Of a stretch of DNA of 21,720 nt, positions 12,083 through 20,138 are shown piece after piece. Position numbers and translations under genes: made by a program. The DNA is from Acidobacteriaceae bacterium. GTDB lineage: Bacteria; Acidobacteriota; Terriglobia; Terriglobales; SbA1. The stretch lies in the NCBI GenBank assembly GCA_003136335.1, contig PLEA01000306.1, positions 1 to 21,720 on the forward strand, in the 5' to 3' direction. A model generated the notes under the pieces. It worked only from the letters and a program-made list of their open reading frames with translations, did not search any database and was not told the DNA's origin. Every line of letters starts with the position of its first letter. Within the stretch, counting starts at the first letter, position 1.

Positions 12083-12163
12083 GTCCCTGCGGGACTCGTT
12101 CAATACTTCCGCTTCGACCCCGGCACTTCCGTGCCGGGCTTTCGCATGCCGCCGCTTCGCGGC
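12083..12163. repeat. mosaic of palindromic repeat units
   Basis: Within the 342-base gene-free stretch from 12020 to 12361 are three closely spaced perfect hairpins: GTCCC-TGC-GGGAC (12083-12095), CCCGGCAC-TTCC-GTGCCGGG (12119-12138) and GCCGC-TTC-GCGGC (12151-12163). All have 3-4 nt pyrimidine-rich loops, unlike the purine loops at 1766-1911. The 8-bp element is followed by CTTTCG and is not a typical terminator, since there is no T tract. I read this as an interspersed mosaic palindromic element of a sort often seen in Acidobacteria. The rest of the gap carries A/C-rich direct repeats GACCCAACGC at 12273-12282 and 12294-12303. Confidence 0.6.
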
Positions 12164-12313
12164 TGTAGGTTGGCAGTTTTCGTTGCATCGCTCTCACAGG
12201 GATTCAGTTTTCCCGCACGCACGTAGGACTCAGTGGAACTCTGGAGGTCTTGCTCGCTAACCTGATACCTCAGACCCAACGCTCAAGACCCAAGACCCAA
12301 CGCCTACCGGACT

Positions 12314-15586: not shown

Positions 15587-15919
15587 TCAACCAGAGGCGT
15601 GAACTCGGCGGGCTTTTTTCCCTCGTGCTCCTGGCCGATTCCCCGATGCATTTCTTTCTTCGGAACTGGTCATGGCGTGTCGCAACAGCCAGTTGGCCCT
15701 GGTCTGGTATCCCTTGCCATATCCCTTTAGCCATTCAAGAACGTCGGCATCCAAGCGCATCGTTACGGCCTGCTTTGGCGGGCGATAGAACTTGCCCACC
15801 TCGGCCCGGCTCCAATCCAGAACAAGGGCAATGTCCGAAAAATCAATATCTTCGTCTTTGTCTTTCATGGCCGCGATGGCGGCGATATTTTTTTTTTGCT
15901 CTTTGGTGAGCTTCCTCAT
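15587..15919 (-). CDS. brnA: BrnA-type antitoxin (ribbon-helix-helix)
   Basis: Antitoxin of 110 residues that binds and neutralises BrnT and, in known systems, represses the brnTA promoter. It has its own start: the ATG at 15919 follows AAAGGAG with 6 bases spacing, so it can be made independently of the upstream frame. MRKLTKEQKK leads to a charged segment with DIDFSDIALVLDWSRAEVGKFYRP. The DNA-binding ribbon-helix-helix is VTMRLDADVLEWLKGYGKGY followed by QTRANWLLRHAM. A run of ten A (minus strand) at 15888-15897 lies at codons 8-11. The C-terminal Arg/Lys/Gly-rich tail beyond about residue 88 is longer than in typical BrnA (~85-95 residues). Confidence 0.85.
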   Translation of the reverse strand: MRKLTKEQKKNIAAIAAMKDKDEDIDFSDIALVLDWSRAEVGKFYRPPKQAVTMRLDADVLEWLKGYGKGYQTRANWLLRHAMTSSEERNASGNRPGARGKKARRVHASG

Positions 15920-16186
15920 AAGCTCTCCTTTCGTGCGACTCCGCGGTCCGGGCAGAGATGTCCGGGTCACGTCCTCACCTTCCACTGCCATCCATGTATG
16001 AACGACCACAAGGATCGCTCCTGGATCAATCGCTCCTAGAGTGATGCAGCGTTCTTCCTCCTCTGATGATTCATCACGTTGCGTTACGGCGTAGGGATCA
16101 TCGAAGGCCAAGGCAGCGGTCTCGAAGCGAATTCCATGCTTGCGTAGATTCTGGTGGTTCTTTTGGTCGTTCCATTCGCAATGCAT
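15587..16186 (-). CDS. brnT: BrnT-type RNase toxin, apparently frameshifted and reading in frame into BrnA
   Basis: The N-terminal ~85 residues are a BrnT toxin, a RelE-like fold ribonuclease of type II toxin-antitoxin systems. They show CEWNDQKNHQNLRKHGIRFE, then FDDPYAVTQRDES, and the ILVVVHTWM strand. BrnT normally ends near RIISARxAxxxERRxYEE. Here the frame changes after EDVTR, and the expected SARTAESHERRAYEEAH tail is encoded in the other frame from about 15957 downward. A one-base deletion near 15960-15962 would explain this. As a result the ORF lacks a stop and continues into BrnA as a 199-residue fusion. Restoring the frame gives a BrnT ending at 15843 that overlaps brnA, the usual arrangement apart from a longer tail. 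The toxin is probably inactive as read, unless this is a sequencing error. Confidence 0.72.
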   Translation of the reverse strand: MHCEWNDQKNHQNLRKHGIRFETAALAFDDPYAVTQRDESSEEEERCITLGAIDPGAILVVVHTWMAVEGEDVTRTSLPGPRSRTKGELMRKLTKEQKKNIAAIAAMKDKDEDIDFSDIALVLDWSRAEVGKFYRPPKQAVTMRLDADVLEWLKGYGKGYQTRANWLLRHAMTSSEERNASGNRPGARGKKARRVHASG

Positions 16187-17628: not shown

Positions 17629-17767
17629 GGTCCCCGGATCATACCTGCCCGTTCTGAAGTCTGCAAACCATCCGCGACAAAATTATTTTGCTGCAACGAT
17701 TTCCAGAATGAGACCATCTTAATTCGTCAGCAGGTTTATTCTCGATTATCCTTCTTTCCACCGGGTG

Positions 17768-17773
17768 TACAAT
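17768..17773 (+). promoter_or_regulatory. possible -10 element for the HPF-sigma/eRF1-like operon
   Basis: TACAAT, one mismatch from the sigma-70 -10 consensus, 52 bases upstream of the ATG at 17825. No convincing -35 hexamer is seen at normal spacing. Confidence 0.3.
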
Positions 17774-17824
17774 CGGCTTAAGAAAGCACTTGGTTGCGCA
17801 CTTCGTCAGCAAAGCCGAGCCGCT

Positions 17825-18877
17825 ATGAACGTTCACATCAGTTACCGTCTTCACAAAATTCCTGCCGTAGAAAAAGACATTCAACATCAGATCGAAAAAC
17901 TGCAAAAACGTTTGCAGGTTTTCCGTCCCGAACTCATTCACTTGAAGGGCGTGGTGGAGGAGATCTCGCCGCGCGAGGGGACCAGTGTTTCGCTGAACTT
18001 GCGATTGCCGTCGGGTCAAATGGCGGTGCAGGCCTCGGCTCCTACGGCTGCGGCTGCGGTGAAGAGTGCGTTTGAGGATCTGCTGCAGCAGGTCAACAAG
18101 CATAAAGAAATCCTGCGCGCGTCGCATAAGTGGCAGCGCGGAAGGCGGGGAGACAGCGCCCGGCCTGGTGCCGCGGTGCGGGAGGTTCCATTCGAAGAGA
18201 CGTTGGCGGCCGTTTTTGCGCCGACGATTTCCGGGGACGACATTCGTTCTTATGTGAACGTCAATCTGGGGCGGCTCGAGCGGTTTGTGGAGCGCGAAAT
18301 CTACTTCCGCGAGGCGCAAGATTCGATTGCTGCGGACAGCATTTCGAAGGAAGAAGTAATCGATGAAACCATTGCGGCCGCCCTGGGTGACGGCCAGGAG
18401 AAGCCGGAACGCCTGGCGCTTGAACCCTGGCTGTATCGGCTGGCCCTGCAAGCTTTGAACGACCTCTCGCGCACCGACGAGAGCCATAGAAACGCCAGAC
18501 CTTTGGAAGATTCCGCGCGTCGGCCCAATGTGAAGGCCAGCGACGAACCACAGCTGCAATTTCATCAGCCCGATGAATCCATGACGGGGGCGACGGTGAT
18601 TCCCGATGCGCGCGTCGCCACGCCGGAGCAGATCCTGGCCTCAGACGAACTATTGCGGCTGATTGCGTCGGCGCTGCGCGATCTGGGGTCGGGGCCGCGC
18701 GAAGCCTTTATTCTGCACGCGATCGAAGGCTTTAGCGTGGATGAGATTGTGGCGATTACCGGCCTTCCAGCTGAGAGGGTACTCGCCTTCGTTTCTGCCG
18801 CACGCGACCACTTACGCAAAGCGCCAGGACTGGCCAAGCAGTTTTCAGGCCGGTTCGCTCCGCCCGGAGCGGCTTAG
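17825..18877 (+). CDS. ribosome hibernation factor (HPF/RaiA) domain fused to a sigma-70-like module
   Basis: The 350-residue protein has two parts. Residues 1-100 are an HPF/RaiA (S30EA) domain: MNVHISYRLHKI, a helix DIQHQIEKLQKRL, four strands and the second helix AAVKSAFEDLLQQVNKHKEIL; such domains sit in the decoding centre of idle ribosomes. After a basic linker (101-120), residues 123-220 resemble ECF sigma region 2 (SKEEVIDETIAAAL and PWLYRLALQALNDL). Residues 266-335 are a region-4 helix-turn-helix: ILASDELLRLIASALRDL, PREAFILHAIEGFSVDEI, AITGLPAERVLAFVSAARD. The linker between is disordered. Normal HPF is ~100-190 residues with no DNA-binding part. The ATG at 17825 is chosen because the HPF homology starts exactly there; a longer start at 17765 adds 20 unlike residues. 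The next gene starts 28 bases after the stop, implying an operon. Confidence 0.78.
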   Translation: MNVHISYRLHKIPAVEKDIQHQIEKLQKRLQVFRPELIHLKGVVEEISPREGTSVSLNLRLPSGQMAVQASAPTAAAAVKSAFEDLLQQVNKHKEILRASHKWQRGRRGDSARPGAAVREVPFEETLAAVFAPTISGDDIRSYVNVNLGRLERFVEREIYFREAQDSIAADSISKEEVIDETIAAALGDGQEKPERLALEPWLYRLALQALNDLSRTDESHRNARPLEDSARRPNVKASDEPQLQFHQPDESMTGATVIPDARVATPEQILASDELLRLIASALRDLGSGPREAFILHAIEGFSVDEIVAITGLPAERVLAFVSAARDHLRKAPGLAKQFSGRFAPPGAA

Positions 18878-18905: not shown

Positions 18906-20138
18906 ATGAGTATTACCCGCGAACAACTCCGAGAGTTAGCTGAATTTCAGGATCAACAATCGTGCGCTCTCAGTTTTTATTTCCAGCCATCCACACCGCG
19001 CAACAAGGCGCACAAGGAGGACATAATTCTCATCAAGGACCTGGCGCGCGAAGCATTGCGCAGCCTGGAAAGCCAAGGCAGGAAGGAGTGCGCCCGCGCT
19101 GATATGGATCGTATCTTGCGCCTGTCGGGCGAATTGCTTCGCAACGGAACGCACGGCAAGGCCGTGTTCGCCTGCGCCGCGCAAAACATCTGGCGCGAGT
19201 ATGACTTGCCTGCCAGCCTTCCGGGTTCGCAGCTTTTTGTGGACCGCCATTTCCATCTCAAGCCGCTGGCACACCTGCTGGGAGCTCTCCCGCTGCTGGG
19301 CGTGGTTCTGATCGACCGTCATCGGACTCGCATCTTCGATCTTCGGCTCGGCGAGCTGACTGAGCGCGAAGACTTGTTCCATCCAGTGCCTCGCAGAGGC
19401 CGCAGCGACGGGTTTGCCGGCTATGACGGAGGCCACGCACAGCGCCGGGTGGAAGACGAGACTCGCCAACACTTCAAGAATGTGGCTGAGTCGCTAAAGG
19501 CGCTGCTGGAAAAAGGTGTGTTCGAGAAATGGATTCTCGCCTGCCAGGACGTTCACCTCTCGCTGCTGGAGCCGCAACTACACTCCTATGTGAGTCAGGC
19601 ACTCATTGGCCGCTTTCATGCGGATGTGGGCCACACTACTCGCGATGAGATCCGCAGCCACGCGCAACAGATTGTGGAACGGTGGCAAAGCGATCGCCGT
19701 CACGAATTAGTGGACCAGGTGCTGGCACAGGCGCGCGGCAACGGACGCGGCGTTACGGGACTACGCCGAGTGTTGCGATCTCTGGAACTGGGAGAAGTGC
19801 AGACTCTTTTGCTGGGCGAAGGCCTTCAGGGGCATGCCGTGGAATGTTTCGGATGCGGGCACATTGACGCCCACCTCGTCAGCTCATGCCCGGCTTGTGG
19901 CAAGGCAACGCAGGAAATCGTCGATGTCGCCGAAGCCATTGTGCCGTGGATAATTCGCCGTGACATTGAAACGATCTACGTTAAGGATGATCCGGAATTC
20001 GACGAGGTGGGCAATATTGCCGCCCTGCTGCGGTTCCGGTCGGAAAATGTGCAGCCGATCTCGACGGCTGTGGCGGACGAACTAGGAAGGGCGGGTGCCG
20101 CGTATCCGGGCCGATTACGGAGGTTTGCGAGCCGGTGA
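18906..20138 (+). CDS. bacterial eRF1-like protein (baeRF family), GGH in place of GGQ
   Basis: A 410-residue relative of archaeal/eukaryotic release factor 1. The start ATG at 18906 follows GGGAG by 7 bases. Residues 1-125 match the position of the eRF1 N-domain. The middle domain starts at LGVVLIDRHRTRIFDL, followed by YDGGHAQRRVEDETRQHF (173-190), which aligns with the GGQ loop and helix GGQSxxRFxR; here GGH replaces GGQ. The final domain has a zinc-ribbon pair (Cys314, 317, 328, 331) and ends with GNIAALLRF, matching the eRF1 GGIxAxLRY motif. Bacterial eRF1 homologues are thought to act in ribosome rescue or inactivation, a role supported here by the upstream HPF-sigma gene. With Gln missing, peptide release may be lost or altered. 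The gene ends before an intrinsic terminator. Confidence 0.8.
   Translation: MSITREQLRELAEFQDQQSCALSFYFQPSTPRNKAHKEDIILIKDLAREALRSLESQGRKECARADMDRILRLSGELLRNGTHGKAVFACAAQNIWREYDLPASLPGSQLFVDRHFHLKPLAHLLGALPLLGVVLIDRHRTRIFDLRLGELTEREDLFHPVPRRGRSDGFAGYDGGHAQRRVEDETRQHFKNVAESLKALLEKGVFEKWILACQDVHLSLLEPQLHSYVSQALIGRFHADVGHTTRDEIRSHAQQIVERWQSDRRHELVDQVLAQARGNGRGVTGLRRVLRSLELGEVQTLLLGEGLQGHAVECFGCGHIDAHLVSSCPACGKATQEIVDVAEAIVPWIIRRDIETIYVKDDPEFDEVGNIAALLRFRSENVQPISTAVADELGRAGAAYPGRLRRFASR

Follow-up and report, generated by a model that had tools for sequence, protein, structure and literature searches.

A conserved acidobacterial protein joins an HPF/RaiA domain to a sigma-derived module and is a probable second hibernation factor

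Background

When bacteria become dormant, both their ribosomes and their RNA polymerase have to be shut down jointly; to our knowledge, no single protein has been established that touches both. PhyR is an example of a sigma fold that was turned into a mimic. Among hibernation factors, Balon genes lie most often beside a raiA gene, as stated in the accessible part of the Balon study (PMC10901736). The same text names alternative sigma-70 factors among the members of Balon operons; these could include a protein of the kind described here under a sigma annotation. We analysed a gene of an Acidobacteriaceae bacterium (assembly GCA_003136335.1, contig PLEA01000306.1), which codes for an HPF/RaiA domain followed by a module related to sigma factors of the extracytoplasmic function (ECF) type. 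In the following, "the window" denotes the whole stretch of DNA that was analysed, i.e. positions 1 to 21,720 of the contig. In the literature searched, to which figures and supplements did not belong, no description of an HPF-sigma fusion was found. Its parts are of known kinds; within this literature, novelty appears to lie in the HPF-sigma combination, in the pairing with a Balon-like gene, and in the relationship to tLST orf11. Judging from sequence comparisons, we consider it probable that the protein is a second hibernation factor, which would act together with the Balon-like protein and whose sigma-derived module would dock on a protein instead of reading promoters.

Results

The architecture of the protein is confirmed by Pfam, profile-profile comparison, and a structure model, which agree on an HPF/RaiA domain, a basic linker, and sigma-2-like and sigma-4-like domains:

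17825..18877, plus strand: HPF-sigma fusion gene, 350 codons plus stop, from the open reading frame listing and full-length homologues
17825..18124, plus strand: HPF/RaiA (S30AE) domain, residues 1-100
18125..18229, plus strand: basic variable linker, residues 101-135; predicted local distance difference test (pLDDT) below 50 at 103-133, median ratio of nonsynonymous to synonymous substitution rates (dN/dS) 0.27
18230..18475, plus strand: sigma-2-like three-helix domain, residues 136-217; helices 137-164, 175-187, and 199-217 in the structure model
18362..18364, plus strand: codon of Asp180 (region 2.2)
18476..18619, plus strand: acidic conserved linker between the sigma-2-like and sigma-4-like domains, residues 218-265; pLDDT low at 219-227, 229-232, and 234-245
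18560..18577, plus strand: FHQPDE, residues 246-251, fitting the family signature [FYW][HYWF]QPD[ED]
18620..18823, plus strand: sigma-4-like helix-turn-helix with altered recognition helix, residues 266-333 (PF22233, PF08281); modelled helices 267-284, 289-300, 305-312, and 316-332

The frame starts with the ATG at 17825, ends with the stop codon 18875-18877, and contains no internal stop in its 350 residues. Pfam places S30AE (PF02482) at residues 13-97 with 31.6 bits (cut-off 23.7). According to the structure model, the N-terminal half has the beta-alpha-beta-beta-beta-alpha fold of the S30AE superfamily; the closest structure is RaiA of the Balon-RaiA complex 8rd8. The NCBIfam YfiA equivalog TIGR00741 falls short with 19.2 bits (cut-off 40.9), and Pfam found neither the long-HPF dimerisation domain PF16321 nor a receiver domain in the fusion at E-values up to 1. 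In the C-terminal half, PF22233 (PhyR_sigma-like) matches residues 285-328 with 29.1 bits (cut-off 27); Sigma70_r4_2 (PF08281, cut-off 25.7) aligns with residues 278-330 and scores 24.7 bits in the whole protein and 27.2 bits in the isolated C-terminal piece. NCBIfam ECF models align across residues 168-333, all under their cut-offs (TIGR02937: 36.6 versus 42.9). None of the Pfam models of sigma region 2 matched the fusion; therefore, the sigma-2 assignment needed other evidence. For the segment 136-217, hhalign gave a value of 82.8 against the ECF set; W202, R205, A207, and the acidic residues of region 2.2 align with ECFs, and both sigma folds are present in order in one chain, as determined by structure search and profile-profile comparison. 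An earlier note on this DNA, made from the letters alone, had claimed that HPF is joined in one frame to regions 2 and 4 of an ECF sigma factor, which is backed by Pfam, hhalign, and the structure model. Its description of the linker as basic and free of a frameshift is likewise borne out by the intact frame and a net charge of +4 for residues 99-122. Both a missing sigma match and an unrelated fold, named there as signs of error, were checked, and neither was seen.

As judged from alignments, the sigma half appears to have kept its fold under selection, to have lost the usual DNA-contact residues, and to have gained a conserved motif. For this comparison, 386 family sequences were used: that of the window, those of 20 acidobacterial loci, 358 of 360 listed similarity matches (the two unused ones are identical to sequences already in the set), and seven plasmid proteins. 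They were picked by similarity and are thus non-independent; L104, L116, L117, L120-L123, L125, and L126 lie outside the set. The controls were 19 ECFs, 16 from acidobacterial genomes and three from an actinobacterial genome, which remained of 21 open frames (L057-L077) after removal of L065, a part of the fusion L104, and of L076, which belongs to a different sigma class. In region 2.2, all 386 family sequences carry Asp (residue 180 of the window protein) where 19 of 19 controls carry Gln. We take the Gln position to be a core polymerase contact, and the altered sigma positions to be contacts to core and DNA. The following residue, Glu181, is Glu in 381 of 386 sequences, and W202 is kept in 383. 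The triplet [KR]SR of the -35 recognition helix occurs in none of the 386 sequences versus 9 of the 19 controls, and this helix is variable, with a mean entropy of 1.81 versus 1.10 for HPF. Median net charges of family and controls are -7 versus +1 for sigma-2, -4 versus 0 for sigma-4, and -6 versus -2 for residues 219-265 of the linker. This linker carries the signature [FYW][HYWF]QPD[ED] in 384 of 386 family sequences and in 0 of 19 ECFs; Q248 and D250 are invariant, and P249 is found in 384 sequences. Given the exchange of Gln for Asp, the missing triplet, and the acidity of sigma-2, a working sigma factor in this half is not supported in the form suggested by the earlier note.

A genome scan gave 38 loci, of which 37 are acidobacterial and show the HPF-sigma layout (a few are cut or broken). 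The remaining one, L038 of a Frankiaceae genome, was dropped as an ordinary actinobacterial sigma factor. In this single actinobacterial genome, matches were confined to the sigma part. HPF-containing fusion matches were found in at least 73 of 200 genomes from the order to which carrier G003 belongs and in at least 22 of 396 genomes across the phylum; these are by-eye counts of matches which start no later than profile position 11 and extend past 170, and since the scoring covered no more than 5 to 10 candidates in each genome, they may be lower bounds. The other matching genomes (14 of 87 in the order, 41 of 63 in the phylum) have sigma-only, HPF-only, or C-half-only matches. The layout is kept in members with down to 26-27% identity to the window protein. 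Every domain is under purifying selection, with synonymous sites near saturation; for the sigma half, the median dN/dS is 0.10-0.16. Thus, this half is changed yet retained under selection. The calculation was based on 28 of 29 prepared sequences, one having been removed by a filter against sequences that contain stops or unknown bases, as well as on those of 378 pairs with dS of 0.05-1.5, i.e. 114 to 250 pairs per domain.

Some further loci deserve mention. Four genomes of the phylum (L128-L131) have stand-alone HPF frames of 113-133 codons (112-114 codons for the three frames read) which resemble the N half of the family and carry no sigma part; that of L129 is S30AE by Pfam. These frames are possibly the ancestor of the fusion or a product of loss. 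Genome G536 has two fusion copies, one beside a Balon-like gene (L135) and one beside a STAS gene (L136). In two distant acidobacterial genomes, the fusion has a STAS-domain gene (anti-anti-sigma type, PF01740) as its neighbour (L088:5099-5437 and L136:5396-5734). L104:106-1092 of genome G152 is a divergent fusion, which matches the family profile with E 1e-52 and has S30AE above the cut-off.

The gene following the fusion is its probable operon partner:

18906..20138, plus strand: Balon-like (baeRF, aeRF1-type) gene, 28 bp after the fusion stop

Its product matches Pfam baeRF_family10 above the cut-off (E 3.5e-18). NCBIfam models of ribosome hibernation factors match as well, with E-values of 4.6e-14 to 3.4e-12 and scores far below the equivalog cut-offs (52.2 bits versus 480, 49.6 versus 320, and 46.5 versus 330). 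The place corresponding to GGQ reads GGH in the window protein and GGH, GGR, AGH, or AGR across 19 aligned neighbours; in none of these 19 does GGQ occur anywhere. A single-sequence search found the solved Rv2629 Balon with E 1.1e-3, alongside an archaeal release factor; the AlphaFold2 model is poor (pLDDT 50.2). Of 37 Terriglobia-type loci, 34 have a homologue directly downstream of the fusion; the contigs of the three others (L021, L032, L035) end about 320 bases or less from the fusion. Among the 27 sequences with a counted start, 21 have a gap of 28-35 bp between both genes, and in the rest it ranges from -23 to 69; in one of 29 sequences, the script found no start. The Balon-like gene directly downstream, to which the earlier note made no reference, ties the HPF-sigma protein to ribosome hibernation. 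Of the 11 more distant acidobacterial regions, four (L079-L082) keep the Balon-like gene, and in the far-off clade of G536 (L122, L135) it is present again (baeRF_family10 with E 1.9e-43).

A separate HPF gene was seen in 12 of 15 genomes searched. That of G003 (L097) follows an rpoN-like frame, as recognised by eye, and carries the long-HPF C-terminal domain PF16321; because this separate HPF is of the long type, the fusion is an extra paralogue in G003.

Relatives also exist on plasmids. By means of tblastn with a divergent acidobacterial member, 22 proteobacterial plasmids were found, 19 of which cover at least 80% of the query. In seven of eight plasmids fetched, the relative lies beside genes for Hsp20, FtsH, HdeD, YfdX, GroEL/DnaK, or thioredoxin; the record of L095 is nearly unannotated, with YfdX nearby. 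The relative on an E. coli plasmid (L093:5926-7071) lies between hdeD-GI and trx-GI, an interval which is the place of orf11 in the tLST1 gene order according to the accessible part of PMC8290217. One island is said there to contain a sigma-24-like factor, for which the part accessible names no HPF domain. The family profile recognises the E. coli copy with E 1.1e-33 across profile positions 1-334, and the linker motif is kept as FYQPDD. Pfam detects in this copy a weak sigma-4 only and does not recognise the HPF part; S30AE is above the cut-off in one (L089) of four plasmid proteins scanned. In profile comparisons, the HPF part of the E. coli copy reached a probability of 54.9 (E 1.2e-4) against the HPF profile of the acidobacterial fusions and 0.3 against canonical HPFs; the C half reached 98.4. 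Taken together, the N halves of eight plasmid proteins gave 99.3 against the acidobacterial fusions and 1.4 against canonical HPFs. The proteobacterial N halves thus seem, on these profiles, to connect to HPF via the acidobacterial fusions rather than directly to the canonical set. Among 5426 complete E. coli genomes, 152 carry a gene nearly identical to L093:5926-7071, and 144 of these have 80% or more of its length; relatives also occur in 301 plasmid records, with an identity of at least 80% in 278. In a tree of 35 proteins, those from plasmids cluster with acidobacterial L122 with a support of 86/88, which is below the starred level; the branch of L093 is very long.

Two further features were noted in the window:

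17763..17827, plus strand: strongly conserved upstream element GGGTGTACAAT (-10-like) plus highly conserved leader reaching the start codon, from alignments of 28 and 27 sequences
12119-12164, plus strand: Acido-Lenti-1 RNA, 51.4 bits versus the gathering threshold of 37, the sole match in the window at Rfam gathering thresholds

Tentatively, a promoter and a hairpin that covers the ribosome-binding site may lie in this conserved region. Such a hairpin, as in an RNA thermometer, folds in single sequences, though with no clear advantage over shuffles (z-values of 0.37 to -1.42 in 7 sequences). The RNAalifold consensus of the leader is a different structure without covariation support (none of its 10 pairs shows changes on both sides), and no known RNA element was found at the leader at Rfam gathering thresholds. 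A defence system was considered and rejected, as PADLOC gave no match for the fusion or its Balon-like neighbour at E-values up to 0.01. At 15587-16186 on the minus strand, one frame of 199 codons encodes a BrnT toxin-like domain (5-66) and a BrnA antitoxin-like domain (110-172), each scoring above its Pfam cut-off; BrnT and BrnA are normally encoded by separate genes.

Discussion

Ribosome hibernation is favoured by the operon and the fold, and also by the location of divergent relatives in heat/stress islands. The changes in the sigma residues speak against promoter reading, and the kept acidic pair Asp180-Glu181 together with the new linker motif argues for a protein partner. We infer the following course of events. 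During starvation or stress, the HPF domain would occupy the decoding channel of the small subunit in a RaiA-like manner, and the Balon-like protein, judging from its family and the shared operon, would fill the A site next to it. The module of ECF-sigma descent, which stands in place of the usual dimerisation domain, would have lost promoter reading; a protein-docking surface may be formed by its pair of folded domains together with the QPD linker, which is nearly invariant. The likeliest target would be the RNA polymerase core at its sigma site, such that idle ribosomes hold or block the polymerase; that the module touches the ribosome itself at a second place is ranked almost as likely. In our judgement, which is separate from that on the explanation as a whole, the polymerase core is a tentative first choice, and the ribosome itself is a somewhat doubtful candidate. 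An anti-sigma factor would be an unlikely partner, and the same holds for promoter DNA bound by a working sigma factor. A link between ribosome idling and transcription, which the earlier note had suggested, is possible; it would more probably run through contact with RNA polymerase or with an anti-sigma factor, with no promoter being read.

Several observations weigh against a hibernation factor with a docking module. The altered sigma residues are known from sequence alone, and ECF groups vary; the triplet [KR]SR is missing from 10 of the 19 controls too, so that the triplet is a common feature of ECFs and not a defining one, and the controls were found by their likeness to the family and include near-copies. 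The linker of L104 lacks the QPD motif. In the structure model, the predicted template modelling score is 0.44, and the arrangement of domains is unsure. With respect to the neighbour, the identity as Balon appears to follow from family membership: a profile of 19 rows found, at E 0.001, release factor and pelota structures and no Balon. Moreover, its pairing with the fusion is not universal, as phmmer detected no Balon-like gene in seven of the 11 distant regions (L078, L083-L088). No separate HPF was seen in three of the 15 genomes searched (G013, G176, G184). Finally, deletion of orf11, the E. coli relative, left lipid-oxidation ratios unaltered, as reported in the accessible part of PMC8407380.

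Among the alternatives, a chance joining, a frameshift, or an assembly artefact has a negligible probability: it is ruled out by the recurrence in 37 of 38 loci and in 73 of 200 genomes of the related order, by the same layout or full-length similarity in 19 proteobacterial plasmids at a coverage of 80% or more, and by purifying selection in all domains. It is improbable that the protein is a genuine alternative sigma factor, whose sigma part is released or blocked by the ribosome-free HPF part such that ribosome occupancy controls a regulon. Both sigma folds are kept, including W202 and Glu181, and there are precedents for ECFs that carry regulatory extensions at the N or C terminus and functional linker motifs (ECF41 and ECF42, accessible part of PMC8999054). 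However, the Gln of region 2.2 is replaced throughout, [KR]SR is absent, the recognition helix is variable, and both sigma domains are more acidic than in the controls; in addition, the upstream element seems, by eye, to resemble a housekeeping -10 and not an ECF promoter.

A PhyR-like mimic would bind an anti-sigma factor with its sigma-like part and free a real ECF, the HPF domain making the release dependent on the state of the ribosome. The match to PF22233 fits this proposal, but ordinary ECFs also match the same model, and the receiver domain was not found. Among the neighbours in the window, L078, and L083-L088, no anti-sigma gene was recognised by eye, although short NepR-like genes were not searched for; we regard this role as having little likelihood. 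A purely ribosomal role, in which the sigma-derived helices contact the ribosome or a ribosome dimer once more, without a link to transcription, is conceivable and on balance rather unlikely. Note that it is a version of the proposed hibernation role, so that our confidences in the two overlap. The Balon-like operon partner is in agreement with it, as is the position of the sigma module, which sits where long HPFs such as the sibling in G003 have their dimerisation domain. A precedent is archaeal HibA, in which HPF is fused to a second ribosome-binding module, the CBS module, according to the accessible part of PMC13324472. On the other hand, the acidity of the module would be unusual for an RNA-binding surface, and no established ribosome-binding motif could be recognised in the linker.

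Taken to its furthest consequence, the proposed hibernation role would place the HPF end on the idle, Balon-filled ribosome, the sigma-derived end in the sigma site of the core, and the QPD linker in the polymerase channel; dormant cells would co-store both machines, and mobile stress islands would have spread this device to proteobacteria. This picture is speculative, and we deem it unlikely to hold in full. The HPF-sigma family, mostly found beside a Balon-like gene in the close relatives of the window, makes a ribosome-transcription link directly testable. If a hibernation role is true, some database entries annotated as "RNA polymerase sigma factor (sigma-70 family)" are hibernation factors.

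Comparison with known systems

HPF/RaiA/YfiA proteins have the N-terminal fold and Pfam S30AE in common with the fusion, which differs by scoring below the YfiA equivalog cut-off, by lacking the C-terminal domain of long HPFs, and by its sigma-derived C half. With ECF sigma-70 factors it shares the sigma-2 and sigma-4 folds in order; unlike these, it has Asp in region 2.2, no [KR]SR, more acidity, the QPD linker, and an N-terminal HPF domain. The sigma-like profile of PhyR (PF22233) matches the fusion as well, whereas an HPF domain replaces the receiver domain, and a NepR partner was not identified. Balon and aeRF1-type factors are represented by the neighbour, which matches baeRF_family10 and has no GGQ in 19 of 19 sequences; in contrast to Balon, it stays below the hibernation-factor equivalog cut-offs, and its profile matches release factor and pelota structures. 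The homologue of tLST orf11 on the E. coli plasmid is similar over the full length, including the linker motif in the form FYQPDD, but no Balon-like gene is annotated in the plasmid stretch read. As in the fusion, the HPF domain of HibA is joined to a second module, which is CBS in the archaeal protein and sigma-derived in the fusion.
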